A stretch of 64,000 nucleotides of DNA from Amycolatopsis sp. FDAARGOS 1241. GTDB taxonomy: Bacteria; Actinomycetota; Actinomycetes; Mycobacteriales; Pseudonocardiaceae. The position numbers were made by a program, and so were the translations under genes. Shown one piece after another: positions 3,294-35,451 of the stretch (position 1 is its first letter; each line of letters begins with the position of its first letter). Where the stretch lies: the NCBI RefSeq assembly GCF_016889705.1, contig NZ_CP069526.1, positions 5,208,001-5,272,000 of the forward strand, in the 5' to 3' direction. Below the pieces are notes generated by a model. The model searched no databases. It was not told where the DNA came from and saw only the letters and a list, made by a program, of their open reading frames with translations.

Positions 3294-3313
3294 TGTCAAC
3301 ACACATGTTGAGA
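3294..3313. promoter_or_regulatory. operator site 1 of the shared palindrome family
   Basis: The core TCAACA-CACA-TGTTGA (3296-3311) is an exact 6-bp inverted repeat with a 4-bp spacer. On the minus strand its outer half reads TTGACA, a consensus -35 box for the luciferase-like gene starting at 3228. A repressor bound here would block that promoter. Confidence 0.75.
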
Positions 3314-3339
3314 ACCGGTGTTCAGGCGCCGGGCCGGTT

Positions 3340-3381
3340 TCCACACGAACGTTGACTGTCACGGTGACGGGCGCGTACATT
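3340..3381 (+). promoter_or_regulatory. operator site 2 and leaderless promoter of the amidohydrolase gene
   Basis: The operator TCCACA-CGAA-CGTTGA spans 3340-3355. The -35 box TTGACT (3352-3357) overlaps its right half, and an 18-bp spacer leads to a -10 box TACATT (3376-3381). The predicted transcription start coincides with the GTG start codon at 3388, so the mRNA should be leaderless. Confidence 0.7.
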
Positions 3382-3387
3382 CCTGCC

Positions 3388-4275: not shown

Positions 4276-4295
4276 TGTCAACGCACGCGTTCAAA
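4276..4295. promoter_or_regulatory. operator site 3, in front of the TetR gene
   Basis: The core TCAACG-CACG-CGTTCA (4278-4293) matches the shared palindrome with one mismatch. A -10-like TACGCT lies at 4264-4269, so the operator would cover the transcription start. This suggests that the TetR protein encoded directly downstream controls itself. Confidence 0.65.
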
Positions 4296-4304: not shown

Positions 4305-4985
4305 ATGGCCAGCAGCGGCATCGACGCACGCCGGAAGGCCGCGTTCGAGGAGGGCAACGAGAGCTACGTCAGCCGGCGTGAGGAGATCATCCGCAGCGCC
4401 GCGCACGTGTTCCGGGAGCGCGGCTACGAATCGGCCACCCTCCGGGACGTTGCCGCCGCCCTCGGCACCGACCGCGCTTCGTTGTACTACTACGTCGGCA
4501 GCAAGGAAGAACTGCTGCAGGAGATCGTGCGCGCCGCCATCGGCCGGGACATCGCGGCCGCCGAGGCGGTCGTGCGCAGCCGGGTCACGACTCCCGAGAA
4601 GGTCCGCGGCCTGATCAGGGCGATGGTCACCTCCTACGCCGACAACTACCCCCACATGAACGTCTACATGGAGGACCTGGGCCGGATCGCCCGCCAGGAC
4701 AGCGAGTGGTCGGTCGGCATCATCGAGCACCTGCGCACGTACGAATCGCTGGTGCACACGATCCTCGCCCAAGGCCACCGCGACGGAACCCTGCGAAACG
4801 ACCTGTCCGTCGAACTTTGCGCGCTCGCCCTCTTCGGCATGGTCAACTGGATGCACCGCTGGTACCGCCCCGCGAGCAAGTGGAACACCGAAGAGATCGC
4901 GGAGACGTTCACTGAGATCTACCTGGGCGGGTACGGCGTCCACGCCGTACCCGGCCAAGGCAACCACCGCACGGTTTCTCCGTAG
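4305..4985 (+). CDS. TetR-family regulator, candidate master repressor of the catabolic island
   Basis: A 226-residue TetR protein. The N-terminal DNA-binding domain spans residues about 25-70, with REEIIRSAAHVFRERGYES and the recognition helix region LGTDRASLYYYVGSKEEL. The rest is an all-helical ligand domain with KstR-like character (an aromatic-rich segment around MVNWMHRWYRP). The ATG at 4305 follows AAAGAGGTGG; an in-frame GTG at 4299 would sit in that site. The gene carries the shared operator in its own promoter, and ten further copies lie in other promoters of the island. I infer that it is their repressor and that a CoA thioester or pathway acid is the ligand; neither is shown by the sequence. 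Confidence 0.85.
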   Translation: MASSGIDARRKAAFEEGNESYVSRREEIIRSAAHVFRERGYESATLRDVAAALGTDRASLYYYVGSKEELLQEIVRAAIGRDIAAAEAVVRSRVTTPEKVRGLIRAMVTSYADNYPHMNVYMEDLGRIARQDSEWSVGIIEHLRTYESLVHTILAQGHRDGTLRNDLSVELCALALFGMVNWMHRWYRPASKWNTEEIAETFTEIYLGGYGVHAVPGQGNHRTVSP

Positions 4986-5023: not shown

Positions 5024-5785
5024 GTGCACGTGTTGGACTCGTTCCGGTTGGACGGACGCGTCGTGGTCGTCACGGGCGCGACTTCGGGCCTGGGGGTCGG
5101 GTTCGCCACGGCGATCGCCGAAGCCGGTGCGGCGGTCGTGCTGGCCGGTCGCCGTGCCGACCGGCTCGGCGAGGTCGCGGCCGAGCTGGCCGGCCAGGGC
5201 GCCGCCGTCGCCGCGAAACCCACCGACGTCGCCGACGAGGAGCAGTGCGCCGCTCTCGTCGCGTACGCGGTGGAGCGGTTCGGGCGGGTGGACGGGCTGG
5301 TCAACAACGCCGGCGTCGGCGAGGCCGTGCCCGCGAGCAGAACGACTCCCGAACATTTCCGCGGAGTCATCGACGTCAACCTCAACGGTGTTTTCTGGAT
5401 GGCCCAGGCCTGTGCGAAGGTCATGCGCCCCGGTTCGGCCATCGTGAACGTCTCGAGCGTGCTCGGTCTCATCGCCCCGCGGTTCCCCCAGGCCGCCTAC
5501 GCCGCGAGCAAGGCCGGTGTCATCGGGCTGACGCGGGACCTGGCTTCGCAGTGGTCGGCGCGCAAGGGCATCCGGGTGAACGCGTTGTGCCCGGGGTACT
5601 TCCTCACCGAGATGACCGAGTCGGGAGCGGACGCGCTGGAGACGAACGTCGTCGCCAACAGCATGCTGGCCCGCTTCGGCGAGCAAGCCGAACTCGACCC
5701 GGCCGTCGTCTACCTGCTCAGTCCCGCGTCGTCCTACACCACCGGAACCACCCTGGTCGTCGACGGCGGCATGGCCGCGCTGTGA
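5024..5785 (+). CDS. short-chain dehydrogenase/reductase (SDR)
   Basis: A 253-residue classical SDR that oxidises or reduces an alcohol/ketone with NAD(P). Visible motifs are TGATSGLGVG (cofactor loop, residues about 17-26), NNAGVG near 91, the catalytic Ser in NVSSVLG near 143, and YAASKAG (catalytic Tyr-x3-Lys) near 160. The C-terminus ends with the usual VDGG. The gene starts with GTG 38 bp after the TetR stop and is probably cotranscribed with it. Given the mycofactocin locus downstream, it could be a mycofactocin-dependent enzyme, but the sequence does not prove this. Confidence 0.9.
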   Translation: MHVLDSFRLDGRVVVVTGATSGLGVGFATAIAEAGAAVVLAGRRADRLGEVAAELAGQGAAVAAKPTDVADEEQCAALVAYAVERFGRVDGLVNNAGVGEAVPASRTTPEHFRGVIDVNLNGVFWMAQACAKVMRPGSAIVNVSSVLGLIAPRFPQAAYAASKAGVIGLTRDLASQWSARKGIRVNALCPGYFLTEMTESGADALETNVVANSMLARFGEQAELDPAVVYLLSPASSYTTGTTLVVDGGMAAL

Positions 5786-5787: not shown

Positions 5788-6591
5788 TCAGCGGCCGGTG
5801 TAGCGCGGCGTCCGCTTGCCCAGGTAGGAATCGATGGCCTCGCGGTAGTCATCGGTCATCGCCGTGAGCACCTGCTGCCGGTTCTCGAACTCGACGACGT
5901 CGTGCAGTGAGGCCGTTTGCAGCGCCACCGAGAGCCCGGCCTTGGTCAGCTCGGTCTGCAGCGGCGGGTTCTGCTTGATCCGGTCGGCGATCGCCAGGGC
6001 CTGGGCGGTCAGCCGATCAGCCGGCACGACGTCGGTGACGAAACCCATCGACAGTGCCTCGTCCGCGTCGAAGCGGCGGGCGGTGTACAGGAGTTCCTGC
6101 GCCCGGCCGGCGCCCACGATGCGGGGCAACAGCCACGAGACGCCGAGATCGCACGCGCTCACCCCCGCGCGCAGGAAGGCCGCGGAGAACACCGTCCCTT
6201 CAACCGCGATGCGGATGTCGCACGCCGCCGCGTACGACATGCCGCCGCCCGCGCACGGGCCGTTGATCGCCGCGATGACCGGGATCTTCAAGTCGTGCAG
6301 CCGGGTCACCGTGGTGCTGATCTCGGTCTGGCGGGCGAGCAGACCGCGGGTCACCCCCAGCTCCTCGAGCCGGGTCTCGTCGCCGTAGCCGTTGAGGTCG
6401 AAGCCGGCGCAGAAAGCGCGGCCGGCGCCGGTCAGGACCGCAACCCGGGCCTCACCGTCGTGCTCGACCCGGTCCAGCACGGCCAGGAGCTCATCGGCCA
6501 GTTCCCAGGTCAGCGCGTTGAGCGCGGCTGGGCGGTTGAAGGTGATCTGCAGGACGCCTTCGTCGATCGTCGTCAGTTCGACGGCGCTCAT
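5788..6591 (-). CDS. enoyl-CoA hydratase/isomerase
   Basis: A 267-residue crotonase-family protein of normal length. The CoA-binding and oxyanion segments are visible as CAGFDLNGYGDE near residue 61 and AAINGPCAGGGMSYAAACDI near 108. It would hydrate or isomerise an enoyl-CoA in the beta-oxidation-like pathway of this island. It is convergent with the SDR gene with only 2 bp between the stops. It is the last gene of a minus-strand group that begins with the CoA-transferase at 8761. Confidence 0.9.
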   Translation of the reverse strand: MSAVELTTIDEGVLQITFNRPAALNALTWELADELLAVLDRVEHDGEARVAVLTGAGRAFCAGFDLNGYGDETRLEELGVTRGLLARQTEISTTVTRLHDLKIPVIAAINGPCAGGGMSYAAACDIRIAVEGTVFSAAFLRAGVSACDLGVSWLLPRIVGAGRAQELLYTARRFDADEALSMGFVTDVVPADRLTAQALAIADRIKQNPPLQTELTKAGLSVALQTASLHDVVEFENRQQVLTAMTDDYREAIDSYLGKRTPRYTGR

Positions 6592-6662
6592 GGGCACACT
6601 CCTCGGCGGATTCTGGTGACGTCGTGGGTGAAGCGGTCCCGAAACGACCCGGGGATGGGCAC

Positions 6663-7523
6663 TCAGCCACGCCGAACCGCGGCGCGGGGCGCAGGTGCGC
6701 CGATGGTGGGCGCGGTGGTGCGGAACACGGTGCCGCCCTCCGGATTCGGGTGGTCCTCGTTGTCGCCGGTGAGCACGTACAGCTCGGCCAGGCCGGTACC
6801 GCCGAACGCCAGCGTGGTCGTGAGCGCGTGCGGGGAGGCGAGCTCGGCGATCTTCTCCCCCGCCGGCGACCACCCGACGACACAGCCGGCGCCGGCCATC
6901 GCGACCCACACCGAGCCGTCGGCGGCGACCGCGAGACCATCCGGGACCGCGTCGTACTCGGACGTGTCGACGAACAACTCCCGCGAAGCGGCGATGTCCG
7001 CCGCGGCGTCGGCGAGGGCGAACTGCCACACGAGGCACCGGCCGGAGTCCACCGAGTACAGCACGGTGTCGGACGGATCGGCGTGGACGCCGTTGGCGAT
7101 CCGCAGGTCTTCGGTGAGCACGGAAACGGTGCCGTCGAGGTCGATCAGGTAGAAGCGGCCGGCATCCCGGACTTCGGTCCGGGGCATGGATCCGCAGAAG
7201 ATCCGGCCGCGCGCGTCCGCGCCGAGGTCGTTGAAGAAGAACTCGTCCTCGCGCGGCTCCAGGAGCACGACCGTCGCGTCGCCCGACTTGTGCGCGACGT
7301 TGCGGCCGCTGATCACGAACCCGCCGTCGACGTGCGCGACCAGCCCGCCGATCGCTTTGCGGTGGGCGATCACCGTCTCGGGTTCGGTGCTCCCCGGTGC
7401 GAAGCGGTAGACGCCGCCGCGGGTCATGTCCGAGAACACCAGCCCGTGCTCGGGGTACCAGCGGGCGGCCTCCGTGAGCCCGTAGCCGCCCCGCAGCGCG
7501 ACGAATCGGTTCGAGCCGGTCAC
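6663..7523 (-). CDS. SMP-30/gluconolactonase-like beta-propeller lactonase
   Basis: A 286-residue six-bladed propeller of the SMP-30/LRE family, which hydrolyses lactones using one divalent metal. Metal-ligand positions are recognisable: Glu in LTEAARWYPEHG near residue 18, Asn in FFNDLGADARGR near 104, Asn in IANGVHADPSD near 153, and Asp in VPDGLAVAADGS near 204. The GTG start at 7523 overlaps the TAG stop of the preceding CoA-transferase by one base, so translation is coupled. A lactone intermediate of ring cleavage is a reasonable, unproven substrate. Confidence 0.85.
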   Translation of the reverse strand: MTGSNRFVALRGGYGLTEAARWYPEHGLVFSDMTRGGVYRFAPGSTEPETVIAHRKAIGGLVAHVDGGFVISGRNVAHKSGDATVVLLEPREDEFFFNDLGADARGRIFCGSMPRTEVRDAGRFYLIDLDGTVSVLTEDLRIANGVHADPSDTVLYSVDSGRCLVWQFALADAAADIAASRELFVDTSEYDAVPDGLAVAADGSVWVAMAGAGCVVGWSPAGEKIAELASPHALTTTLAFGGTGLAELYVLTGDNEDHPNPEGGTVFRTTAPTIGAPAPRAAVRRG

Positions 7524-8761
7524 TACAACCCCCTCTCCGCTGCGGCCTCGCGCAGCTGCTCACGGTGTTCGGGTGCGGCGATCGCGATCATCCGCGCGGC
7601 CCGCTCGCCCGCGGAGGCCCCGCGTAGCTCGGCGACGCCGTGCTCCGTGGTGATCACGTCGACGTCGGTCGCCAGCGCGGTGACGGTCTCGACGCGGGGC
7701 ACGATCCGGCTGGAACCCGCGCGCGTCGAGGCAGGCAGCGCCACGACGGAGCGGCCGCCGGGCGCGCGCACGGACGAGCGCAGGAAATCCACGCCGCCGC
7801 CGGTCGCCCCGACGTACCGCCCGCCGGCGGTCTCGCTGTTGACCTGCCCGAACAAGTCGACCTCGAGCGCGGAGTTCACGCACACGAAGTTCGACAGCGC
7901 CTGGATCCGTGCGGGGTCATGCGTCTGTCCGATCGAGACGATCCGCAGGTTCTTCTCCTCGGCCGCGAGCGCCAGCGCGCGGTGCGATCCGAGAATCGAG
8001 CCGGCCACGGCCAGCCCCGTGTCCACGCCCTTGGCCCGGCCGGTGATCACGCCGTCGCGCATCATCTCGAGCATCGTGTCGCCGACCATGCCCGAGTGGA
8101 CGCCGAGGTCACGGCGGCCGGCCACGGCCTGCAGGACGGCCTCGCTCAACTTGCCGATGCCGATCTGCAGACAGCTCCCGTCGCGGACGTACCGCGCCAC
8201 GTTGGCGGCGATCACCCGCTCAAGGCCGGACGGGTCGGTGCGGCGGTACTCCGGCAGCGAACGGTGCGTGCGGATCGCGTACGACACCTGGTCGAGGTGC
8301 ACCCGGGTGTCGCCGGGCACCACCGGGACGTTGTCGTTGATCTCGGCGAGCACGACCCTCGCCGAAGATACGGCGTGCCACGCGTAGTCGGAGGTGACGC
8401 CCAGGCTGCACCACCCGTCGGCATCGGGCGGGCTGAGCAGCACCAGTGCGACGTCGACCTTCACCGGCCCTTCGGACAACAGCCAGGGCAGCTGAGACAT
8501 GTGCGCGGGCACGAGCCGCATCCGCCCGGTCTCGATCAGCTGGGTGTTCGCCGCCATGCCGACCGTCGACACCAGGCCGATCCCGGCCGGGACTCGGGTC
8601 AGCACGTCGGTGACGCTCATGCCCACGAACAACCTCGCTCCGGGCAGCGCGCCGGCGTGCCGCAGCACCTCGTCCACGAGCACCGTGGGCTCGCCGAGCA
8701 CCTGCTCGACGGCGATCGTGTCACCGGGACGCACGTGCGTCAGGATCTCGGGAACGCTCAT
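7523..8761 (-). CDS. acetyl-CoA hydrolase/transferase family protein (4-hydroxybutyrate CoA-transferase-like)
   Basis: A 412-residue class I CoA-transferase/hydrolase. Family features are the GIGKLSEAVLQAV segment near residue 205, HSGMVGD near 225, and the C-terminal region with NSALEVDLFGQVNSE, where the family's catalytic Glu lies, followed by GGGVDFLRS. It would exchange or remove CoA from a short acid. The ATG at 8761 was chosen because a -35 TTGACA (minus strand, 8798-8793) and a weak -10 place the transcript start about at this codon. It is divergent from the acyl-CoA ligase with a shared operator. Confidence 0.85.
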   Translation of the reverse strand: MSVPEILTHVRPGDTIAVEQVLGEPTVLVDEVLRHAGALPGARLFVGMSVTDVLTRVPAGIGLVSTVGMAANTQLIETGRMRLVPAHMSQLPWLLSEGPVKVDVALVLLSPPDADGWCSLGVTSDYAWHAVSSARVVLAEINDNVPVVPGDTRVHLDQVSYAIRTHRSLPEYRRTDPSGLERVIAANVARYVRDGSCLQIGIGKLSEAVLQAVAGRRDLGVHSGMVGDTMLEMMRDGVITGRAKGVDTGLAVAGSILGSHRALALAAEEKNLRIVSIGQTHDPARIQALSNFVCVNSALEVDLFGQVNSETAGGRYVGATGGGVDFLRSSVRAPGGRSVVALPASTRAGSSRIVPRVETVTALATDVDVITTEHGVAELRGASAGERAARMIAIAAPEHREQLREAAAERGL

Positions 8762-8791
8762 CGCCACCGAGTTTCGCAACGGCACCGACGG

Positions 8792-8821
8792 TTGTCAACA
8801 CTCGTGTTGGATGTCTACAAT
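8792..8821 (+). promoter_or_regulatory. operator site 4 and leaderless promoter between CoA-transferase and acyl-CoA ligase
   Basis: The operator TCAACA-CTCG-TGTTGG (8795-8810) lies between divergent genes. Rightward: -35 TTGTCA (8792-8797), 18-bp spacer, -10 TACAAT (8816-8821), with the predicted start at the ATG of 8828. Leftward, the same site provides TTGACA. One bound repressor could close both promoters. Confidence 0.75.
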
Positions 8822-8827: not shown

Positions 8828-10387
8828 ATGTTCCGGTTCGAGGACATTCCATCTTGGACAACGCCGGTGGTCCTCGCCGAGGTGGCCGCCGCGCATCCCG
8901 ACCGCACTTTCGTCACCTCCGAGGACGGTGAACTGACCTACGGGGAGACGGCCGGACTGGTCGCGGCCGTCGCCGCCGGCTTCACCGAACGCGGGCTCGC
9001 ACCGGGTGATCGCGTCGGTGTCCTGCTGACCAACGGGATCCGCTGGTGCGCTTGCGCTCTCGCGGCGCACGCCGCCGGACTGACCGTCGTGCCACTCAAC
9101 ACGTGGTACCACGCCGACGAACTCTCCGCCGTGGCCGAGCGGGCGAACCTGCGCGCGCTCATCACCCAGGACCGGCTCTTCGGCCAGGACGGCCGGGAGC
9201 TCGTGGCGAACGTCGCCGCGGCGGGAACGCCGATCCTCACCTGGAACCGCGGCGCGGCCATGCCGGACGGGATCCCCGAGGTGACCGTGGCCGATCCGCT
9301 CGCCGCGCTCCGGGCCGCACCCACCGGCGAATCCGCCGACGCCCTTGTGCTGTTCACCAGCGGCAGCACGGCCACGCCGAAGGCCGTGCGCCTCACCCAG
9401 GCCGGCGTCGTGCGGACCGCGCACGCCATCGGCGAGCGGCAAGGCGTCACCGGGACCGACCGGCTTTGGTTCGGCTCACCCCTGTTCTTCGTGTACGGCT
9501 GCTCCAACGCCCTGCCGAACGCACTCACCCACGCCGCCACCCTGTGCGTGCAGGAGAAGTTCGACGCGGCGGGCGCACTGGCCTTCATCGAACGGCACCG
9601 GTGCACGGGCTATTACGGCATCGGCCCGATCACGCGGGCATTGGCCGCCCACCCCGATCTCGCCGTCCGCGACATCAGCTCTCTGCGCCTCGGCACCGCC
9701 AACGCCACGCCCGAAGACCTCCGCCTGGCGATCGAGGTCCTCGGCGTCCGCGACGTCTGCAACGCCTACGGCCTCACCGAAGGCCACGGCCACACCACGA
9801 TCACCCACCACACCGACCCGCCCGAGGTCCGGACGCTCAGCCAGGGCACCGCGCTGCCGACGCAGGAGCTGCGCATCGTCGTCGACGGAACACCCGTGGG
9901 GACGGGTGAGCCCGGCGAGATCCAGATTCGCGGCCTGATCTCCCCCGGTTACCTGGACGACGGCGACCGCACCGCGCAGGGGTTCACCCCGGACGGCTGG
10001 TTCCGCACCGGTGACCTGGGCGCGCTCGACGCCGACGGCCGGCTCACCTACCTCGGCCGGAGCCACGAGCTCATGAAGGTCAACGGCATCAACGTTTCGC
10101 CGCTCGAGGTCGAACGCGTTCTCGTCGAGCACGAAGAGGTCGAGCAGGCGTTCGTCTTCGGGCTGCCCACTCCCGAGGGCGACGAGACCGTGGGCTGCGT
10201 GCTCGTGAGCGCCGTCGCGCACGACGAACTGGCCGACCGGGTCCGGACCTGGCTGCGCGGGCGGATCGCCGGCTACAAGGTTCCGGGCACCATGAGGGTG
10301 GTGACGGCCGCTCAGCTGCCCCTGACCGCCACCGGGAAGGTGTCGAAGCGGTCGATGCGGGAGCAGCTGAGCGGCTCGGTCACTTGA
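8828..10387 (+). CDS. acyl-CoA ligase (ANL superfamily)
   Basis: A 519-residue AMP-forming acyl-CoA synthetase. The phosphate loop LFTSGSTATPKAVRL lies near residue 173, the A5 motif YGLTEGHG near 313, the A7/A8 region GWFRTGDLGALDADGR to GRSHELMKVNGINVSP near 390-425, and the C-terminal adenylation Lys in TATGKVSKRSMR. It activates a carboxylic acid with ATP and CoA, a likely entry step. The ATG at 8828 matches the predicted transcription start, so the mRNA is probably leaderless. Its 3' end overlaps the convergent second ligase by 8 bp. Confidence 0.9.
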   Translation: MFRFEDIPSWTTPVVLAEVAAAHPDRTFVTSEDGELTYGETAGLVAAVAAGFTERGLAPGDRVGVLLTNGIRWCACALAAHAAGLTVVPLNTWYHADELSAVAERANLRALITQDRLFGQDGRELVANVAAAGTPILTWNRGAAMPDGIPEVTVADPLAALRAAPTGESADALVLFTSGSTATPKAVRLTQAGVVRTAHAIGERQGVTGTDRLWFGSPLFFVYGCSNALPNALTHAATLCVQEKFDAAGALAFIERHRCTGYYGIGPITRALAAHPDLAVRDISSLRLGTANATPEDLRLAIEVLGVRDVCNAYGLTEGHGHTTITHHTDPPEVRTLSQGTALPTQELRIVVDGTPVGTGEPGEIQIRGLISPGYLDDGDRTAQGFTPDGWFRTGDLGALDADGRLTYLGRSHELMKVNGINVSPLEVERVLVEHEEVEQAFVFGLPTPEGDETVGCVLVSAVAHDELADRVRTWLRGRIAGYKVPGTMRVVTAAQLPLTATGKVSKRSMREQLSGSVT

Positions 10388-11921
10388 GGAGCTTGCGGTT
10401 GACCTTGCCGGTCGGGGTCATCGGCAACGCGTCCTTGAACTCGACGACACGCGGCTTCTTGTACGAAGCCAGGTTCTCGCCGACGTAGCGGCCGACCTCG
10501 TCCTCGGTGAGCGAGGAACCGGGCGCGCGGACGACGAACGCCTTCACGACCTCACCCCACTCCTCGTCCGGCGCGCCGATCACGGCGGCCTCCGTGATCT
10601 CCGGGTGGTCACCGAGGCACCGCTCGACCTCGCTGGGGAAGATGTTCTCGCCACCGGAGATGATCATGCTTTTCAGCCGGTCGACGATGTAGCAGAAGCC
10701 TTCTTCGTCCCAGGTCACGCCGTCACCGGTGTGGATCCAGCCGCCGCGCACCAGGCCCGCGGTCTCCTCAGGCTTGTTCCAGTAGCCGATCATGTTGTTG
10801 GGGCCGCGGTGGCAGAGTTCACCCATGGTCTTGCCGTCGCGCGGAACGGGCCGGCCGGTCTCCAGGTCGAGCACGGCCAGGGTGGACAGCAGCGCGGAGT
10901 CGCCGCACGAGCGGAACAGCTCGGGTTTCTCCCCCGACAGCGCCCGGCGGTGCGCGTCGGGCCCCAGGTAGGTTCCGGGCCCGAACTCGGTCATCCCCCA
11001 CGTCTGCATGAGGTCGGCCTTGAACAGCTCACCGGCCTTGCGGATGGTGTCGGCGCCCATGGGCGCGCCGCCGTACTCGAGGATCCGGACGGTGGTCGGC
11101 GGGTTGCCGTCCTTCTCCGCCTCGGCCACGAGCCGCGGCAGCATCGCGCCGATCGCCATGAAGGCGCTGACCCTCTCCTGGCGGATCAGCTCGAGCATCC
11201 CGTCGGACTGGAAGTTCGCCACCACCACGGGCCGCCCGCGCAGCAGGTATGCGAACGCCATGTACCCGACCACGTGGAAGAGCTGCCCCAGCATCAGGTA
11301 GGTGTCGTCCTCGGCGACCCGGGTGGCGGCCAGGTAGTCGATGGTGCACGCGCCGTAGCTGTACTGCGAGTGCACGGCGCTCTTCGGGATGCCGCTCGTC
11401 CCCCCGGTCGAGATCGCGAGGTACGGTTCGAACAGCAGCGACTTCGAGTCCGGCAGGCGCCGCCGCACCTCGGCGATCCGCGGTTGCACCCGCACCAGCA
11501 GCTCTTCGTACGCGCTGTCCTTCCCCGTGGACCACTCGACCCAGACCGTGTCCACCCGGGTCCGGATCTCGGCGACGACGTCCGCGAACTCCGCCTCGTA
11601 GAAGACCACGTCCGGCGCCGCGTCGAGCAGCGCTTCGGCGACCTGCGTGGCCGAAAACCGCCAGTTGAGCGGGAAGAGCATCGCCCCGACGCGCGCGGTC
11701 GCGATGTACAGCTCGACGAGTTCGATCGAGTTGCGCGACAACGCCGCGATGCGGCCGCCCCGCCCGACCCCGAGTTCGTCGAAGAGCGCACCGGCGAGCC
11801 GGTCGGTCCGATCGGCGAGCGCGCCGTACGTGCGCGTGACGCCCGAAACCGGGTCGATCAGCGCCGGCTGCGTCGTGTTTCGCGCCGCGAACATCTCCGG
11901 CATGTTTGCGATGTTGAACAT
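10380..11921 (-). CDS. acyl-CoA ligase (ANL superfamily), second copy
   Basis: A 513-residue AMP-forming ligase that is clearly different from its convergent neighbour. The phosphate loop reads STGGTSGIPKSAVHS near residue 167, the A5 motif TWGMTEFGPG near 306, the A8 region GGWIHTGDGVTWDEEG to DRLKSMIISGGENIFP near 390-430, and the C-terminus PTGKVNRKLLK holds the catalytic Lys. Such medium/long-chain or aromatic acid ligases activate substrates for beta-oxidation. It follows the luciferase-like gene at 11952 by 30 bp on the same strand and probably shares its regulated promoter. Confidence 0.9.
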   Translation of the reverse strand: MFNIANMPEMFAARNTTQPALIDPVSGVTRTYGALADRTDRLAGALFDELGVGRGGRIAALSRNSIELVELYIATARVGAMLFPLNWRFSATQVAEALLDAAPDVVFYEAEFADVVAEIRTRVDTVWVEWSTGKDSAYEELLVRVQPRIAEVRRRLPDSKSLLFEPYLAISTGGTSGIPKSAVHSQYSYGACTIDYLAATRVAEDDTYLMLGQLFHVVGYMAFAYLLRGRPVVVANFQSDGMLELIRQERVSAFMAIGAMLPRLVAEAEKDGNPPTTVRILEYGGAPMGADTIRKAGELFKADLMQTWGMTEFGPGTYLGPDAHRRALSGEKPELFRSCGDSALLSTLAVLDLETGRPVPRDGKTMGELCHRGPNNMIGYWNKPEETAGLVRGGWIHTGDGVTWDEEGFCYIVDRLKSMIISGGENIFPSEVERCLGDHPEITEAAVIGAPDEEWGEVVKAFVVRAPGSSLTEDEVGRYVGENLASYKKPRVVEFKDALPMTPTGKVNRKLLK

Positions 11922-11951
11922 CGAGCTACACCCTTCGCCCCGTGCGGATTC

Positions 11952-13116: not shown

Positions 13117-13136
13117 TGTCAACCCTCGTGTTGACC
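13117..13136. promoter_or_regulatory. operator site 5, upstream of the second luciferase-like gene
   Basis: The core TCAACC-CTCG-TGTTGA (13119-13134) has one mismatch. On the minus strand the end reads TTGACA, a consensus -35 box directed at the gene starting at 13046, about 70 bp away. Confidence 0.7.
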
Positions 13137-24443: not shown

Positions 24444-24461
24444 CGTCAACACTCGTGTTGC
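24444..24461 (-). promoter_or_regulatory. operator site 7 and promoter of the MmgE/PrpD gene
   Basis: Core TCAACA-CTCG-TGTTGC (24446-24461). On the minus strand its end supplies -35 TTGACG (24449-24444), with an 18-bp spacer and -10 TAGCGT (24425-24420). The transcript would start near 24413, leaving a short leader before the ATG at 24377. Confidence 0.7.
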
Positions 24462-27102: not shown

Positions 27103-27103
27103 G

Positions 27104-28161: not shown

Positions 28162-29141
28162 GCGGGATCACCGTTCACGGGGTGGAGACAGCGGTGGGCC
28201 AGCCTCGCGTCCCCGGTGTCCTGGTGCAGGGGCGGGGCCGACTCCCGGCACTCGTCGCCGGCCGCGGGGCAGCGCGGGGCGAACGGACAGCCGGCGACGG
28301 TGCCGGGCACCGGTGGCCGGCCCGGGATCGTGCGGAACTCGCCGTGCCGCGGGTGGTCGCGGCGGACGATCGAGTCGACCAGCGCGGCGCTGTAGCGGTG
28401 CCGGTGCCGGGTGAAGAACACTTCGGTCGGCGCGCGCTCCACCAGCCGACCGCCGTACATCACGAAGACGTCGTCGGTGCGCCCGGCGATGACCCCGAGG
28501 TCGTGACTGATCAGCACCAGAGCCATGTCCCGGTCCCGCTGGACCTCCGTGAGCAGGTCGAGGATCTGCTTCTGCACCGTCACGTCGAGCGCGGTGGTGG
28601 CCTCGTCGGCGAACAGGATCTCGGGGTCGCACGACAGCGCGGCGGCGATGGTCACGCGCTGGCGCATCCCGCCGGACAGCTGGTGCGGGTACTGCCGCAG
28701 CTGCTGGTCGGGGTCGGGGACGCCGACCTTGGCGAGCAGGTCCGCGGCACGGGCGCGCGCCGCCGCGCGATCGAGCCCGAGGTGGAAGCGCATCGGCTCG
28801 GTCAGCTGCCGCCCGATGCGCACCACCGGGTTCAGCGCGGTCATCGGGTCCTGGAAGACGACGGCGATCCGCGCACCGAGCAGGCGGCGCTGCACCGCGG
28901 GGCCCGGTGAGGTGATGTCCTCGCCCGCGAGCCGCACGCTCCCGGTGACCCGCGCGCCGGCCGGGGCGAGCCCCAGCACGGTGCGCGTCAGCATCGACTT
29001 CCCCGAGCCCGACTCCCCCACGATGCCGACGGTCCGCCCGGCACCCACCGACATCGACACACCGTCGAGCACCGCACGCCATTCGCCGCGCACAGGCAGG
29101 GAGCAGCCCAGCTCGTCGATCTCGAGCAGGTCGGCGCTCAC
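28158..29141 (-). CDS. oligopeptide/dipeptide ABC transporter ATPase (OppD-like)
   Basis: A 327-residue ATPase with Walker A GESGSGKSMLTR near residue 42, signature LSGGMRQR near 154 and Walker B ILFADEATTALD near 175. The C-terminal extension has CPFAPRCPAAGDEC, the Cys-rich region common to OppD/DppD proteins. It overlaps the binding-protein gene and the OppF-like gene by 4 bp each, so synthesis is coupled. Confidence 0.92.
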   Translation of the reverse strand: MSADLLEIDELGCSLPVRGEWRAVLDGVSMSVGAGRTVGIVGESGSGKSMLTRTVLGLAPAGARVTGSVRLAGEDITSPGPAVQRRLLGARIAVVFQDPMTALNPVVRIGRQLTEPMRFHLGLDRAAARARAADLLAKVGVPDPDQQLRQYPHQLSGGMRQRVTIAAALSCDPEILFADEATTALDVTVQKQILDLLTEVQRDRDMALVLISHDLGVIAGRTDDVFVMYGGRLVERAPTEVFFTRHRHRYSAALVDSIVRRDHPRHGEFRTIPGRPPVPGTVAGCPFAPRCPAAGDECRESAPPLHQDTGDARLAHRCLHPVNGDPA

Positions 29142-30709
29142 TTCTTGGACCCGATCTGCTCCCAGAACGGCGTGCAGCCGAGTTCGAAGGTCTGCACGCC
29201 GGCCACGTCGCCGGTGAAGAGCACGCCGAGCTCGGTGGCCTGCGTCGGCAGGGTCGGCAGGTCCTGGGTGTAGTGCTGGAGGAACGTGTCGTAGTCCTGC
29301 TTGCGCCGGCTCTCGTCCGTCGTCGTCACCGCGTCGGCGAGCGCGGCGTCGACGTCCGGATCGGAGTAGAGCGGGTAGTTCAGCACCCCGCCGGTCGAGA
29401 ACGTCGACTGGGCCACGGGGTAGGGGTTGAGGAAGAACGTCGCGCCGGTGGTCATCTGGAAGTTGCTGGTGCGGTAGCTCTGGATCCGTTCGGCACCGGA
29501 CTGCGTGTCGATGTTCATGGTCACGTTGCGGAACGTCGCGAGCCTGCTCTGCACGTACTGGGCGAGCTTGACGTCCTCGGCACCCGACGTCGTGACGTAG
29601 GTGAAGTCGACGGGCTTGCCCTCGGCTGCGAGCTCGTCGAACAGCTGCTGCGCCTTGGCCTTGTCCGGCGCCGGGTAGTCGTACTTCGGGTCGTAGTAGG
29701 GAGAACCGGTGGCGAACAGGTTCTTCGGGGGCTTCACCAACCCGTGGTAGACGACCTTGGCCAGTTCGCTCAGATCCAGCGCGTGGCCCACGGCCTGCCG
29801 GGCGCGCGGGTCGTCGAACGGGGCGCGGCGGGTGTTGAAGTACAGCCCGTCTCCGCCGTTGACCGCCGTCTTCACCGACTGCAGGCCCGCCTTCTCGCCG
29901 GCGGCGAGCGTGCTCGTGTGCTGCACTTCGAACAGCTGCGCCTCACCGGAGAGCAGGAAGTTGGTGGCCTGCTGCGGGTCCTCGACGACCTTCAACGTCA
30001 CGGAGTCCAGGTGCGGCAGACCCGGTTGCCAGTAGTGCGGATTGCGGGTGAAGCTCATGTGGTCACCCTTGACCCATTCTTGCAGGACGAACGGACCGGC
30101 CCCGACGGGGTGCTGGCCGAAGTCCTTGCCTTCCTTCTTCACCGCGGTCGGCGAGGGCACGAGCGAGAAGCTCTGGGACACGACCTGGTCGAACTGCGCG
30201 TTGGGCGAAGGCAGGGTGATCCGCAAGGTCAGCGGATCGACCACAGTGGACTTCAGGTCCTTGGCCACGGCGTACTGCGTCGAGTGGTTCGCCTCGACCG
30301 CGTCACGGTCGATGGAGAATTTCACCGCCGCGGCGTCGTAAGGCGTGCCGTCGCTGAACTGCACGCCCGGACGGAGCTTGATCGTCCACACGGTGTGGGT
30401 GGTGTCGGGGGTGATGCTCTGCGCGATGCGCGGCACCACCTTGCCGGTCGTGTCGGTGTAGGCGAGCAGGTCGAAGATCGCCTCCGTGCGGAAGGTGTCG
30501 TTGGTCGACTGCACGTAGGTGATGAGCGGGTCCATGGTGGTCGTCTCGTATTGCGCCACGAAGGTCATGGACCCGCCGTTCGTGGCGACACCGCCGGCCC
30601 CACTGCCGCCCTCGCCGGCCGACGTTCCGCACGCCGCGGCGCTCACGGCCGAAACGAGGGCGACGGCGATCGCGGCGATCTTGCGAACCGCTCTTGAACT
30701 CCTGCTCAT
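29138..30709 (-). CDS. oligopeptide-type ABC transporter substrate-binding lipoprotein
   Basis: A 523-residue family 5 solute-binding protein. The first 27 residues form a lipoprotein signal ending in the lipobox SAAAC. A Gly/Ser-rich linker and the SBP-bac-5 core follow, with segments RPGVQFSDGTPYDAAAVKF near 113 and HPVGAGPFVLQEWVKG near 190. It captures substrate outside the cell. The 33-bp gap to the preceding permease is the largest inside this operon. Its position in the operator-controlled island suggests that the cargo is a catabolic substrate. Confidence 0.9.
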   Translation of the reverse strand: MSRSSRAVRKIAAIAVALVSAVSAAACGTSAGEGGSGAGGVATNGGSMTFVAQYETTTMDPLITYVQSTNDTFRTEAIFDLLAYTDTTGKVVPRIAQSITPDTTHTVWTIKLRPGVQFSDGTPYDAAAVKFSIDRDAVEANHSTQYAVAKDLKSTVVDPLTLRITLPSPNAQFDQVVSQSFSLVPSPTAVKKEGKDFGQHPVGAGPFVLQEWVKGDHMSFTRNPHYWQPGLPHLDSVTLKVVEDPQQATNFLLSGEAQLFEVQHTSTLAAGEKAGLQSVKTAVNGGDGLYFNTRRAPFDDPRARQAVGHALDLSELAKVVYHGLVKPPKNLFATGSPYYDPKYDYPAPDKAKAQQLFDELAAEGKPVDFTYVTTSGAEDVKLAQYVQSRLATFRNVTMNIDTQSGAERIQSYRTSNFQMTTGATFFLNPYPVAQSTFSTGGVLNYPLYSDPDVDAALADAVTTTDESRRKQDYDTFLQHYTQDLPTLPTQATELGVLFTGDVAGVQTFELGCTPFWEQIGSKK

Positions 30710-30742
30710 GGTTCCTCTTTCCGGGGCGTCGGTCCTCTGCCG

Positions 30743-31648
30743 CTACAGCACGGACTCCTTGAGCGCGAAACGACGTTGCAGCCGGTCACCGACGACGTTC
30801 AGCGCGAAGACGGTCAAGAAGATGGCCAGGCACGGCGCGAACACCGGCCACGGGTAGATCGTGATATCGGTCTTCGCCTCCGCGATCATCCCGCCCCAGC
30901 TCGGGGCGGGCGGGGGCACGCCGAGACCCAGGAAGCTCAGTGATCCTTCGGCGACGATCATCGTCGCCATCACCACCACCGCATACGCCGCGACCGGCCG
31001 GATCAGCCCGGGGAGCACTTCGCGGAAGAGCACCCGGCGGTGGCTCGCGCCCATCGCGTGCGCGGCGAGCACGTAGTCCCGCGTCATCACGGAAAGCGCA
31101 TTGGCCTTCGCCAGCCGCGCAAACGTCGGGAGGTTGAGCAGCGCCAGGCTGAACACCAGCGTCGACAGGCTCGGCCGGACCGCCGCCGCGACGGCGAGCA
31201 GGAACACCAGGGGCGGAATGGCGAGCACGGTGTTCGCGAGGATGTCGACCACGGTGCCGACGATTCCCTTGAAGTACGCGGCAACCAGCCCGAGCAGGCA
31301 TCCCGCGGTGAGCCCGGCGAGCGTCGCGATCACGCCGACGGCGAGCGAGATCCGGCCGCCGAAAGCGAGGCGGGACAGGATGCTCCGGCCGAGCCCGTCG
31401 GTGCCGAGCAGCTGCCCGCCCCCGCCGGGGAGCTGTCCGCTGTCGCCCACGGGCGTCGCGACACTGGCCAGCGGCAACAGACCGGCGAAAAGAGCGAAGA
31501 ACACGACGACTCCCAGCCACGCCACCGCCAGCACGAGCGTGACTCGCGGACGCTTCTTCCCGTTGCGCGGCAACTGATCCGTCGCGGCGTCGGCCACTTC
31601 CGCCGGAGGGATCGGCAAGGTCACGTCACTCGCCTCCGATCGGGTCAT
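30743..31648 (-). CDS. oligopeptide-type ABC transporter permease (OppC-like)
   Basis: A 301-residue membrane protein. Residues 1-30 form a polar N-terminus. A transmembrane helix around VTLVLAVAWLGVVVFFALFAG follows, and then the OppC N-terminal and BPD_transp_1 domains with GTDGLGRSILSRLAFGGRISL near 85 and the EAA-like loop SHRRVLFREVLPGLI near 205. It overlaps the OppB-like gene by 4 bp. Confidence 0.9.
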   Translation of the reverse strand: MTRSEASDVTLPIPPAEVADAATDQLPRNGKKRPRVTLVLAVAWLGVVVFFALFAGLLPLASVATPVGDSGQLPGGGGQLLGTDGLGRSILSRLAFGGRISLAVGVIATLAGLTAGCLLGLVAAYFKGIVGTVVDILANTVLAIPPLVFLLAVAAAVRPSLSTLVFSLALLNLPTFARLAKANALSVMTRDYVLAAHAMGASHRRVLFREVLPGLIRPVAAYAVVVMATMIVAEGSLSFLGLGVPPPAPSWGGMIAEAKTDITIYPWPVFAPCLAIFLTVFALNVVGDRLQRRFALKESVL

Positions 31649-32610
31649 GCCCGGCTCCCGGTCGCGACCCGCGGGTCGAGGATGCCGAACGCTAGGTCGA
31701 CCAGCAGGTTGATCACGAGGTAGAGCGCCGCGACGAACACCACGATCCCCTGGATGGTCGGGATGTCCTTGCTGTAGATCGACTGGGCGGCGAGCGCACC
31801 GAGCCCCGGCAACGAGAAGATGGTCTCCACGATGACCGTGCCGCCCAGCAGCCGGCCGAAGGAAATCCCGGCCACGGTGAGCACCGAGAACAGCGAAGGT
31901 CGCAAGGCGTGCCGGAACATGATGTACCGGCGCGGCAGCCCGCGGGCACGCGCGTTGAGGATGAAGTTCTCCTGCAGCGTCGCCACGATGTCGGCCCGCA
32001 GCAGGCGGTGGAAGACGGGGATCTCGGCGATGGCCAGTACCAGAGCCGGCACCAAGGCGTGCCGCAGGTTCTCATACGCGTCCCGCGAAAGCGGAACCCA
32101 CCCGAGCGGCGGCAACGCACCCGTCGTGGTGGCCAAGTAGGACAGCGCGATCGCGACCACGAACGGCGGGACCGACATCAACCCGGCCGAGGTTCCGGTG
32201 GCGATGCGGTCGATCGGTCCCGGGTGGGACGCGGAGTAGATCGACAGGAGGAAAGCGACCACCACCGCGAACACCAGGGCCATGACCGCCAGCTGGGCCG
32301 TCACCGGAAGGCGCTGGCTGATCTCTTGCCACACCGGGACACGACTGCCGATCGACCGTCCGAGGTCACCGCTGAGCGCGTGCCCGAGCCAGTCGAAGTA
32401 CCGCGCCGGCAGCGGCCGGTCGAGCCCGAGCTGCTGGTCGACCGCGGCGATGTCCTGCGGCCTCGCGCGGTCTCCGAGGATGGCGGCCGCCGGGTCGCCC
32501 GGCATGAGGTCGGTCAGCGCGGTCGCCGCCAACGGGACGAGCAGGAGCACCGGAATCGCCGGCCAGGCCCGTCGGAGAAAGTTCTTCGCTCGAATGTTCA
32601 CACGATCCAC
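31645..32610 (-). CDS. oligopeptide-type ABC transporter permease (OppB-like)
   Basis: A 321-residue inner-membrane permease, first gene of the oligopeptide-type operon. It shows an N-terminal transmembrane helix (IPVLLLVPLAATALTDLMPG), the LGLDRPLPARYFDWLGHALSGDLG segment near residue 55 and the EAA-like loop near 225 (RARGLPRRYIMFRHALRPS). The start at 32610 is not firmly fixed; later in-frame starts exist. Two operators of the island (32678-32715) lie about 70 bp upstream. Confidence 0.88.
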   Translation of the reverse strand: MDRVNIRAKNFLRRAWPAIPVLLLVPLAATALTDLMPGDPAAAILGDRARPQDIAAVDQQLGLDRPLPARYFDWLGHALSGDLGRSIGSRVPVWQEISQRLPVTAQLAVMALVFAVVVAFLLSIYSASHPGPIDRIATGTSAGLMSVPPFVVAIALSYLATTTGALPPLGWVPLSRDAYENLRHALVPALVLAIAEIPVFHRLLRADIVATLQENFILNARARGLPRRYIMFRHALRPSLFSVLTVAGISFGRLLGGTVIVETIFSLPGLGALAAQSIYSKDIPTIQGIVVFVAALYLVINLLVDLAFGILDPRVATGSRA

Positions 32611-32677: not shown

Positions 32678-32715
32678 TCAATAATCGCGTTGACAGTAGT
32701 CAACGAGAACGTTTA
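32678..32715 (-). promoter_or_regulatory. operator sites 9 and 10 in tandem, upstream of the oligopeptide ABC operon
   Basis: Cores TCAATA-ATCG-CGTTGA (32678-32693) and TCAACG-AGAA-CGTTTA (32700-32715) are 6 bp apart. The junction also creates the outward palindrome CGTTGAC-AGTA-GTCAACG. On the minus strand, TTGACT (32682-32677), an 18-bp spacer and TACCGT form a promoter pointing at the OppB-like gene. The second site overlaps the last codons of the capA-like gene. Confidence 0.65.
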
Positions 32716-34070
32716 CTCCACAGGTCGACGCGGCCGATCCCGGCTTCTACGGTGATCTTCGTGCCGAATGGTTCGCTCAGCGCCACCATCCGGTCCAGCA
32801 CCGCCCGGCCGGTCGGATCGCTCGCCACGGCCGGAAAACCCGTCGTGGCACGGCTCGCGCGGCTCCACGTCATCGGGTGCAGCTCGACCGTCCGCACCCG
32901 GTGCGTGACGGCGTCCACCTCGCAGACGGGCAGGACGAACCCCGGCCGGTGGTCGTTCCCTTCGGCCGGGCTCAGCACGGTCTTGCCGCTCGTGGTCGTG
33001 TCCCGTGCGCCGAACGCGTCGAGCAGGCCCGCGTCGAACGAACGCACGCGGGAGTCGTTGCCCCAGCGGGTGTAGAAGTCGTGCGGCTGCGGTTCGCGGC
33101 GGCCCAGCCGGAACAACGGACCGGGGTCGTGGAGCACCGGCACGCCCCGGACCACTTCGATCCCGCGCATCGGCGCGTGCGAACCCTGGACGAGGACGAG
33201 TGCGGCGCCGGATTCCACGGCCGCGTGGGCGTACTCACGGGCGAACGCCGGCGTGCTCGACATCCGCCCGTCCGCGGCGTCCCAGGCCTGCACGTGCAGG
33301 TGCGCCACGACGAAGTCCGCGACTGACGCCGCGTACCGCAGCGACTCGAGGTTGCCGGCGAGGTCTTCGGGATCGCACACCGTGGAAGGCGTCTCCTGGC
33401 CGGGCACGACCCGGAAGCGCCGGATCGAGTTGTGCAGGCCTGGCGGGTGCACGACGAACTCGTCGCCGTCACGGACGGCCCACAGGCCCAGCGCACCCGC
33501 CAGGGCGCACAACCGGTCGGCGGTCGCCGGATCGACGACATCGAGGTAGCGCACCGGGTTGACCCCCGGCCGCCCGGGGAAATCGCTCCTCGCCGCGCCA
33601 GCGCGCGCGAACGCGGGGAACGACGACGTCGCCGAAACGAGTGCGACGCGCCCCACCGCGGTGTCGGCGAACGCCGGCGCGCGGGCGGCCGCGAGGTCCG
33701 CGCCGGTCCCGGCGTGCGGAAGCCCTCGTGCGTCGAGGGCCTCGATCGTCGAACGCAGCCCGCCGTAGGAGTGGTCGAGCGCGTGGTTCGACGCCGTGGA
33801 CACGAGGTCCACCCCGAGCGCCCGCAGCTCGTCGGCCACCACCGTCGGCCCGCGCATCCAGCTGAGCGCGCCTTCCGCGGCGGGGAACACGTCCTCACCG
33901 TCGAAGTCGTGCAGCGGGATTTCCAGGTGCGCGTGCGTGACGTCCGCGCCGCGCAAGAGGTCCAGCGCGGCGACGACCGCCGGCTCACGGCACCTCGACA
34001 CGCGGGTGTTCAGGATGACGTCCCCGGTGACCGCGAGCCGGTAGCACGGATCAGCGGTCAACGACGACAA
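32700..34070 (-). CDS. CapA family protein (poly-gamma-glutamate capsule type metallophosphatase)
   Basis: A 456-residue protein of the PGA_cap/metallophosphatase superfamily. Motifs are AVTGDVILN near residue 14, LEIPLHDF near 49, STASNHALDHSYGGL near 90, VVAHLHVQ near 253 and VQGSHAPMRGIEV near 291, the usual metal-binding positions. It begins with TTG at 34070 (overlapping the P450 stop by 20 bp) or TTG at 34061; no clear ribosome site separates them. Coupling to the P450 suggests that it is cotranscribed. There is no capsule gene cluster around it, so its role in this catabolic context is unexplained; it may act on a modified substrate rather than on a capsule. Confidence 0.8.
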   Translation of the reverse strand: MSSLTADPCYRLAVTGDVILNTRVSRCREPAVVAALDLLRGADVTHAHLEIPLHDFDGEDVFPAAEGALSWMRGPTVVADELRALGVDLVSTASNHALDHSYGGLRSTIEALDARGLPHAGTGADLAAARAPAFADTAVGRVALVSATSSFPAFARAGAARSDFPGRPGVNPVRYLDVVDPATADRLCALAGALGLWAVRDGDEFVVHPPGLHNSIRRFRVVPGQETPSTVCDPEDLAGNLESLRYAASVADFVVAHLHVQAWDAADGRMSSTPAFAREYAHAAVESGAALVLVQGSHAPMRGIEVVRGVPVLHDPGPLFRLGRREPQPHDFYTRWGNDSRVRSFDAGLLDAFGARDTTTSGKTVLSPAEGNDHRPGFVLPVCEVDAVTHRVRTVELHPMTWSRASRATTGFPAVASDPTGRAVLDRMVALSEPFGTKITVEAGIGRVDLWSKRSR

Positions 34071-35358
34071 AGTACTTGACGTAGCGCGGGATGTCCTCGC
34101 CCAAGTACTTGCTCATGTCCTTCTTCAGGCCGACCGGCGGGTTGTCCGGATCCGGGCGAACGCCCGCCGCCAGCAGCTTGCGCAGGAGCTCGACGTGCGC
34201 GCCGCCCTTGCCGTCGTTGCCCACGACCACGCGCAGGCCGTAGCACTGGTGCGCCCCCAGGCCGAAACCCACGCCGTACCGCGGGGTGCCGTCGGAGGGA
34301 GCCGGCCGGTTCGGGTTGAATTCGTCGGCGTCGGCGCCGAAGATCTCCCGGTCCCGGTTGGCCAGGACGTACTCGATGTGCAGTTCCTGGTTCGGGTGGA
34401 TCGGTGTGCCGTCCGAGAGGGTGTTCTCCTCCAGCGACAACCGCGTCTGGTACGGCGCGAACGGCGCCCGCATGCGGATGATCTCCTGCAGGCTGTGGAG
34501 GAGGAAGGTCGGGTCCGTCCTGCGCTCGAGGTCCTCCGGGTGGTCGATGAACCAGCCCTGGAGCAGGTCGATGGTCTGGATCACCGACTGGGTACTCGTG
34601 CCGACGGAAGCGGCGAACAGCAGCGTCGATTCGACGATCAGCTTGTCCTCGTCCGTCCACTCCGGAGCGAGGCCGGCGGCCGCCATCTTGAGGAGGCAGT
34701 CGGGGACGTCCGTCTCCGCGATCTCCCCCGCGTCGATGCGGCGCCGCTGCTCCTTGTGCCACTCCAGCGACGGCCGGAAGAACTCCGCGACGTACCGGGC
34801 CTTGGCGTCCAGCGCCTTCTCGTTCACCGCGTCACGGTCCTCGAGGTAGCCCGAGCTCGTCCCCGCGGCGATCGGCCCCGCGAAGGACACCATTCGCGCG
34901 ATCCGCTCGTCGGTGTCCATGCCGACCAGGCCGATGAGCTTGGCGGTGAAGTGGACGAAGACCCGCTCGAGGAATTCGACCAGATCGAACCGGACTTTGC
35001 CGTCGGGTCCGGGCTCGGCGAGGCGCAGCGCGAGCAACCGGTCGGCTTCGGGCAGCACGACGTCTTCCCGGATGCTGGAGAGCGCGTCGGCTCGGACCAA
35101 CGGGTTCAGCAACTTGCGCCGCGTGCGGTGCGAGTCGCCTTCCACGTACATCATCGAAGCCCCGAGGAACTCGCGGACGTTGATCTCGCCGTTGACCGGG
35201 TCTTCCTTGTAGTTCGCGAACAGGTAGGGATCGTGCGTCACGGCGGTCCTGGACCGCAGCAACCTGGCGATGTCCTGAATGGTATTGGCCCGTGCGAACG
35301 GGCACTGCGAACCGTCCGCTCGCTGCGAACCCTCCACCGGCTCAGGGGCCTGCGTCAT
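34051..35358 (-). CDS. cytochrome P450
   Basis: A 435-residue soluble P450. The ExxR motif is in LQEIIRMRAPF near residue 288, and the haem loop FGLGAHQCYGLR, with the Cys ligand, is near 370. The I-helix segment FAASVGTSTQSV near 242 lacks the usual acidic residue before the conserved Thr: a Ser stands there. The ATG at 35358 follows GAGGAGA. The promoter contains operator site 11, with a -35 TTGACA. The neighbouring divergent gene encodes a ferredoxin reductase-like flavoprotein; a ferredoxin partner is not adjacent, the nearest being at 17054. It would hydroxylate the island's substrate. Confidence 0.92.
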   Translation of the reverse strand: MTQAPEPVEGSQRADGSQCPFARANTIQDIARLLRSRTAVTHDPYLFANYKEDPVNGEINVREFLGASMMYVEGDSHRTRRKLLNPLVRADALSSIREDVVLPEADRLLALRLAEPGPDGKVRFDLVEFLERVFVHFTAKLIGLVGMDTDERIARMVSFAGPIAAGTSSGYLEDRDAVNEKALDAKARYVAEFFRPSLEWHKEQRRRIDAGEIAETDVPDCLLKMAAAGLAPEWTDEDKLIVESTLLFAASVGTSTQSVIQTIDLLQGWFIDHPEDLERRTDPTFLLHSLQEIIRMRAPFAPYQTRLSLEENTLSDGTPIHPNQELHIEYVLANRDREIFGADADEFNPNRPAPSDGTPRYGVGFGLGAHQCYGLRVVVGNDGKGGAHVELLRKLLAAGVRPDPDNPPVGLKKDMSKYLGEDIPRYVKYFVVVDR

Positions 35359-35431
35359 GGGGACATTCTCCTCAAGTACTAGGTCATCGTCGACTCGCAC
35401 CCGACGCCAGAGTCGCACTCGCCACCACTGC

Positions 35432-35451
35432 TGTCAACTGTTATGTTGACG
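35432..35451. promoter_or_regulatory. operator site 11 between P450 and ferredoxin reductase genes
   Basis: Core TCAACT-GTTA-TGTTGA (35434-35449), flanked by TG and CG. Its left end reads TTGACA on the minus strand as -35 for the P450. On the plus strand a -10-like TATGTT (35442-35447) points to a start near the GTG at 35455. Confidence 0.75.

Follow-up and report, generated by a model that had tools for sequence, protein, structure and literature searches.

The DNA analyzed here is a window of 64,000 nucleotides from Amycolatopsis sp. FDAARGOS 1241 (contig NZ_CP069526.1, positions 5,208,001 to 5,272,000; the genome is designated G000), together with the stretch to its left, L016. This region contains a catabolic gene island in which most promoters carry the palindrome TGTCAAC-N6-GTTGACA. 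The palindrome is very probably the operator of a TetR subfamily represented in the island by two proteins, TetR1 and TetR2, which are predicted from sequence to act as repressors. This reading is based on the clustering of the sites in the genome, their position at gene starts, their conservation at orthologous promoters, and their co-occurrence with the subfamily and its recognition helix. The existence of a local regulon, as claimed in an earlier note on this DNA, is strongly supported.

Clustering of the palindrome and its position at gene starts

The earlier note described 11 copies of TCAACRN4YGTTGA in a 32-kb island. All 11 lie where they were placed and fit the pattern with 0 or 1 mismatch, but the series is longer and comprises 14 sites over 45 kb. 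A 12th copy, which had no entry in that note, occupies positions 35456-35471 of the window, and two more lie to the left of it, at contig positions 5198780 (L016:10780), upstream of an aldehyde dehydrogenase gene, and 5203529 (L016:15529), between amidohydrolase and flavin reductase genes. Alignment of the island sites with their flanks gave the full palindrome TGTCAAC-N6-GTTGACA.

At up to 2 mismatches to the 16-mer, the window contained 23 matches versus a mean of 4.54 (standard deviation 2.11) in shuffled sequences, and none of 100 shuffles reached 23. The 9.8-Mb genome contained 68 sites with no more than 1 mismatch, whereas the reversed pattern used as a control gave 22. Of the 68, 14 fell within contig positions 5198780-5243471, where the outside density predicts about 0.25, and so did all three perfect 16-mer sites of the genome. 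For TGTCAACN6GTTGACA, 13 genome sites were found at up to 2 mismatches (control, 5), with 8 inside the island, while at up to 1 mismatch all five sites were inside it. Likewise, all six exact GTCAACN6GTTGA sites of the genome belong to the 45-kb island. In 60 rounds of shuffling, the 14 sites observed in the island compared with a mean of 0.33 and a maximum of 2, and the flanks contained none versus 0.20. The sites are concentrated in the island rather than evenly spread over the genome. A total of 13 extended sites is not unusual by itself, since the same-genus genomes G086, G092, and G098, which lack this TetR, have 13, 13, and 7, dispersed among the matches listed; the unusual feature is clustering, not the genome total.

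When inverted repeats of 5 bases separated by 0–12 bases were sought without a preset motif, TCAAC-N6-GTTGA ranked first in both G000 and its relative G094. A position weight matrix (PWM) was trained on 147 sites from relatives, none of them from G000; its top 14 matches in 92 kb were exactly the 14 island sites, with scores of 16.4–30.0, and the next match scored 10.6. Among the places scored, two strong outliers may be regulon members or chance matches. One, at contig position 3985370 (L026:1503; PWM 24.1), is located between a GntR-like and a transporter-like gene, and the other, at 5324014 (L018:10014; PWM 23.2), 33 bp upstream of a molybdopterin oxidoreductase-like gene, all of these genes being called by eye. 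The stretch L018 also carries a short open reading frame in two copies with identical translations (599-958 and 12888-13247), which looks transposase-like by eye.

Two sites occupy the divergent promoter of a gene for a luciferase-like monooxygenase, LLM1 (minus strand), and an amidohydrolase gene (plus strand). The upstream copy (3296..3311) has 0 mismatches and a PWM score of 27.8 and aligns with sites in G094, G176, and the Mycolicibacterium locus L073; the other (3340..3355), identified by pattern match and ortholog alignment, overlaps the -35 box TTGACT (3352-3357) of the amidohydrolase gene. The site at 4278..4293, 12–27 bp upstream of the tetR1 start and with an orthologous site in G094, is a candidate for autoregulation. 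Pattern, PWM, and ortholog alignment together identified the sites between the CoA-transferase (minus) and acyl-CoA ligase (plus) genes (8795..8810), upstream of LLM2 and acyl-CoA ligase b (minus; 13119..13134), at the PrpD-like gene (minus; 24446..24461), where the downstream ABC ATPase, permease, and LLM3 genes are perhaps also served, and at the family III CoA-transferase gene with a GTG start at 24541, whose -35 box TTGACT (24502-24507) the site overlaps (24490..24505). The same three lines identified both sites of the Opp-type uptake operon (minus), at 32678..32693 and 32700..32715; the latter overlaps the capA stop codon, in agreement with the copy reported at the 3' end of the capA-like gene. 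A perfect site (19351..19366; PWM 30.0; ortholog alignment) is located 5–20 bp upstream of ribBA (minus). The last pair serves the P450 (minus) and ferredoxin reductase (plus) genes, with one site between them (35434..35449; PWM 28.5) and the second at 35456..35471 (pattern and PWM). The description of the copies as lying nearly always between genes holds with the correction that the 35434 site covers the annotated reductase start and the 35456 site follows it.

Among 16 compared gene starts, which were picked because a site was nearby, with transcription units inferred from gaps, 15 have a site close by, and the 16th, that of the thiolase gene, is 175 bp from the nearest one, which is better assigned to LLM2. 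TetR2, PrpD-L, and the thiolase operon each lack a site of their own. The amidohydrolase promoter reads TTGACT-18-TACATT, its -35 box being the right arm of the palindrome, and the GTG at 3388 probably starts a leaderless transcript. A similar layout, read by eye, was found for the family III CoA-transferase (TTGACT at 24502, TACCGT at 24525, GTG at 24541), and the promoter box TTGTCA-18-TACAAT of acyl-CoA ligase a also overlaps its site.

The regulon reaches leftward to about contig position 5196900, taking in aldehyde dehydrogenase, Rieske, amidohydrolase, and flavin reductase genes. The earlier view that one palindrome family defines the island is slightly too wide, because the thiolase operon carries its own palindrome. 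The promoter of this thiolase–acyl-CoA dehydrogenase–ferredoxin operon (13309-17990) contains a different perfect palindrome, TAACGATCGTTA, at window positions 13253-13264, which is also present in G094 (L057:5860). The genome holds a single exact copy of it and, 64 bp apart at 2950942 and 2951006, two close variants. Probably, TAACGATCGTTA is the site of another regulator and the operon lies outside the regulon.

Conservation in relatives and the TetR subfamily

The earlier note proposed the TetR encoded at 4305..4985 (plus), TetR1, as the best candidate regulator. It is a good candidate, since its promoter itself carries a site in each of three species, at -19 in G000, -21 in G094, and -65 in G176, but a single TetR cannot yet be named because a 58% identical paralog with a similar DNA-binding domain, TetR2 (L016:17923-18603), is encoded 6.4 kb to the left; one of the two or both may bind the sites. 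The DNA-binding domains share 43 of 53 residues in G000, and the identity of the DNA-binding versus ligand domains is 81% versus 51% in G000, 79% versus 53% in G094, and 68% versus 54% in G176. Both proteins exceed the 24-bit cut-off of PF00440 (TetR_N), with 54 bits for TetR1, which also matches TetR_C_24, and 52.9 bits for TetR2, and the all-helical ligand/dimer domain of TetR family repressors is present. The nearest folds of the TetR1 structure model (pLDDT 87) were KstR2, RHA5900, and PfmR, with FadR and AibR lower down, a result that indicates fold kinship only. Identity with Bacillus FadR is contradicted by the 58.4 bits of TetR2 against the cut-off of 200 for NCBIfam NF053878 and by TetR1 being unlisted at E 1e-15.

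A TetR matching at E 1e-50 or better was found in 12 of 390 family genomes, and a close TetR pair, besides G000, in G094 and G176 (Amycolatopsis sp. GM8), where the proteins are 61–87% identical to TetR1. Sites numbered 17 in G094 and 29 in G176 (60 kb each; shuffled means, 0.42 and 0.33), and 11 in L073 of Mycolicibacterium sp. CBMA 234 (shuffled, 0.17). Sites are retained at orthologous promoters in G094 and also, although the gene order is altered there, in G176 and L073: at the LLM1/amidohydrolase, left amidohydrolase, and LLM2 promoters in the latter two, and additionally at the CoA-transferase/ligase pair, RibBA, PrpD/CoA-transferase, and P450/reductase promoters in G176. The sites of four islands retain both arms and a constant 6-bp gap.

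Of 29 loci from Actinomycetota and Pseudomonadota, fetched solely for their similarity to TetR1, 24 had at least one site. Eleven distant actinomycete loci contained 43 sites versus a shuffled mean of 0.80, and nine proteobacterial loci 47 versus 1.37. The loci L076, L077, and L096 together gave one site versus 0.18 in stretches of 8.2, 3.5, and 20.6 kb, although their TetRs have a serine/threonine (S/T) recognition helix, and the remote L099–L101 gave none versus 0.42.

A sister clade of 11 TetRs (9 loci, 171 kb) forms one branch (support 100/99) and shows the background level, 3 sites versus 0.97 in shuffled sequences, with a TetR identity of 39–44%, as near as or nearer than most site-carrying loci. 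Its recognition helix reads DRAAIYYYF, whereas each of the 27 motif-group TetRs has DRA[S/T]xYYY. A site with a PWM score of at least 14 was found no more than 300 bp upstream of 16 of the 30 TetRs outside the sister clade and L099 versus 0 of the 11 inside the clade; as background, 4.6% of random 340-bp segments of the same loci reach PWM 12. Two genomes, G306 and G364, hold both helix types, and the exact-site pair or cluster adjoins the DRA[S/T] type. An inverted-repeat scan of the nine sister-clade loci for an operator of that clade gave only repeats that were single-locus or inseparable from shared ancestry.

In the reverse direction, 20 genomes were chosen for many or paired exact sites out of the 142 having an exact site. 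A TetR match with E 1e-28 or better was obtained in eight of them, each with its nearest exact site 0.7–5.6 kb away from such a TetR. Among the 12 genomes without it, sites are dispersed in G167, G212, G215, and G239, while G278 has a pair 276 bp apart and G017 two sites 10 kb apart. G068, G146, G218, G223, and G226, with three exact sites each, gave no TetR match in a search at E 1e-50 only.

Look-alike palindromes form arrangements of their own. Exact GTCAACN6GTTGAC tandem pairs with 27–28-bp spacing in G006, G021, G075, G100, G102, G244, and G355 represent a different conserved double operator. In L134 (G104:C2:54001-74000), 13 palindromes similar in sequence to TGTCAAYRCGCRYRTTGACR form a regulon of their own, with look-alike sites, on a 92.5-kb contig that appears plasmid- or phage-like by eye.

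Alternative explanations

Several observations weigh against the assignment of the palindrome to this TetR subfamily. Under a strict promoter rule, just 2 of the 16 gene starts showed a promoter-like pair; the third, 24502, was read by eye only, and at the remaining starts this rule detected no promoter. The PWM training sites were pattern-selected, so that the top-14 result bears on rank and gap in G000 but is no test of whether the motif exists. No site precedes TetR2 in G000 and G094, and in G176 its promoter has a weak one (8.6) at best; in L073 the autoregulatory site is weak (PWM 9.5). Five of the 29 fetched loci (L077, L096, L099, L100, and L101) have no site, two of these, L077 and L096, despite the S/T helix, and LB400 (L080) has just one. 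G306 contains an additional exact site elsewhere (C2). In the reverse test, G006, G021, G100, G244, and G355 carry the exact-palindrome tandem pair (27–28 bp), and G104 a run of 13 similar palindromes in 20 kb by a looser rule, without such a TetR; therefore, other proteins use look-alike sites. The reverse-test cases are also partly non-independent, since G027 and L088 are one record and, for G306 and G364, the presence of the other-type TetR was known beforehand.

These look-alikes are what could be said for a regulator from outside the island using the sites, which is nevertheless improbable given the co-occurrence of the motif with the TetR subfamily in both Actinomycetota and Pseudomonadota, the correlation with the recognition helix, and the autoregulatory sites. 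That the repeats are merely strong -35 boxes (TTGACA) doubled by chance symmetry would fit the -35 position of TTGACT at 3352 and 24502; however, the left arm would be superfluous for a -35 box, both arms and the fixed 6-bp gap are kept in four islands, and every exact copy falls within one stretch of the 9.8 Mb, which makes this explanation extremely improbable.

The division of labor between the two TetRs is a closer matter. It is possible, if somewhat doubtful, that only TetR1 binds these sites and TetR2 controls something else: the own-promoter site belongs to TetR1 in three species, with none or a weak one at TetR2, and a single subfamily member (E 1e-30 or better) suffices in each of the 15 other genomes searched. 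On the other hand, both TetR kinds occur in three species, although the G176 pair does not separate in the tree. Two-input control, with both proteins sharing the operator and answering different effectors, such as an early and a late CoA intermediate, comes close to an even chance; the greater likeness of the DNA-binding than of the ligand domains in all three genomes favors it, but faster divergence of the ligand domain is usual for any pair of TetRs, and binding by TetR2 is a prediction. A broader scenario can be offered tentatively: a subfamily of Actinomycetota and Pseudomonadota would keep TGTCAACN6GTTGACA as pathways change, the sister clade would have left it via S/T59->A and V/I64->F, and the paralogs of this island would share the operator and read different CoA intermediates, exerting two-input control over 45 kb.

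Island genes, proposed control, and known systems

A Pfam scan covered 39 proteins of the window and its left part and detected no regulators among them besides the two TetRs. It identified three luciferase-like monooxygenases, two amidohydrolases, two CoA ligases, CoA-transferases, thiolases, an acyl-CoA dehydrogenase, two PrpD-like proteins, a P450 with a ferredoxin reductase, two ABC uptake systems, RibBA, an enoyl-CoA hydratase–RibF fusion, and a flavin reductase. On the minus strand lie LLM1 (2074..3228; also supported by its relatives), genes for enoyl-CoA hydratase, an SMP-30/gluconolactonase-like protein, and acetyl-CoA hydrolase/CoA-transferase (5788..8785), acyl-CoA ligase b and LLM2 (10380..13046), RibBA (18063..19346), LLM3 with the ABC permease, ABC ATPase, and PrpD-like genes (19395..24377), the Opp-type ABC uptake operon (27178..32610), and the capA-like (PGA_cap) and P450 genes (32700..35418). 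The plus strand encodes the amidohydrolase (PF04909; 3388..4203), a short-chain dehydrogenase/reductase perhaps belonging to the tetR1 operon (5024..5785; 38-bp gap), acyl-CoA ligase a (8828..10387), a double-domain family III CoA-transferase (24541..27102), and ferredoxin reductase (35443..36600). A fourth luciferase-like gene (L016, about 10807-11730, minus), outside the Pfam set, was recognized by eye, supported by a 31% match between LLM3 and the gene's counterpart in G094.

Flavin-related genes accompany the luciferase-like monooxygenases. RibBA and the flavin reductase (L016:15571-16092) are regulon members beside them, and relatives of RibBA and LLM1 also occur near such a TetR among several sphingomonads as well as the sister clade. 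The in-frame fusion of enoyl-CoA hydratase to RibF (FAD synthetase/flavokinase; 302..2080, minus) is matched in both parts in G094 and over only about 220–230 residues in G176 and Mycolicibacterium.

In the proposed mechanism, a TetR dimer would bind each palindrome and exclude RNA polymerase, a step we infer from the overlap between site and -35 box at the three readable promoters; TetR1 would repress its own gene as well. Release by an acyl-CoA thioester, made from the substrate by one of the two island ligases, is rather probable, a CoA ester being a likely inducer because of the nearest folds (KstR2, PfmR, FadR, and AibR) and the presence of two CoA ligases in the island. Derepression would turn on uptake, the P450/ferredoxin and flavin-dependent monooxygenases, CoA activation, and breakdown, with the flavin supply (RibBA, RibF fusion, and flavin reductase) switched on alongside.

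The camphor island of Pseudomonas putida comprises CamR, P450cam, and diketocamphane monooxygenases, and the two islands have in common the combination of a TetR, P450 and ferredoxin reductase, luciferase-like monooxygenase, flavin reductase, and CoA ligase. The gene set described here is far larger, and the likeness is one of gene combination. LLM1 matched 3,6-diketocamphane monooxygenase 4uwm at E 6e-11, behind alkanal monooxygenase. The best 120 of 737 LLM1 relatives have general flavin-monooxygenase names or none, except for one "3,6-diketocamphane 1,6 monooxygenase [compost metagenome]". As to a substrate clue, the NCBIfam matches listed, up to 25 for each protein, included no equivalog above cut-off for the scanned proteins, and only LLM3 passed a model, the broad domain TIGR03619. 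An alicyclic, terpenoid-like substrate is an uncertain guess, less likely than likely.

The operator of KstR2 is reportedly a CAAG..CTTG palindrome, unlike the island motif. KstR2 itself, which serves the cholesterol pathway of M. tuberculosis, is among the nearest folds of TetR1 (PDB 4w97, 4w1u), and the TetRs PfmR, FadR, and AibR (3vpr, 3whb/3whc, 5k7z) have only 21–31% identity. Several fold neighbors of TetR1 bind CoA esters (entry titles; PMC8700777). EdcR, likewise a TetR repressor of catabolic operons, acts in estrogen catabolism of Caenibius, and its proposed operator, TnnCnnTACnAnTnGTAnnGnnA, differs from the island motif (PMC8700777). The actinobacterial TetRs DarR (ATACTN4AGTAT; PMC10636190) and MftR (TN2GGCAN5TGCCN2A; PMC8728441) also have palindromic operators, but of other sequences, and MftR answers to acyl-CoA. 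A TetR activator of dsz has been described in PMC6534649, where the term palindrome is absent from the available text. In a search of part of the literature, including the available portions of PMC11667970, PMC8700777, PMC8728441, PMC10636190, and PMC6534649, no description of TCAAC-N6-GTTGA as a TetR operator was found. TetR regulons of catabolic islands are already known; new, as far as this search shows, are the operator and its subfamily.

With both recognition-helix types occurring in G306 and G364, the residues that set operator choice in TetR proteins can be tested cleanly. The operator gives access to an as yet unnamed family of repressors and to the unassigned islands of catabolic genes in which it occurs, and a one-site reporter could serve to search for the inducing compound and hence the substrate.

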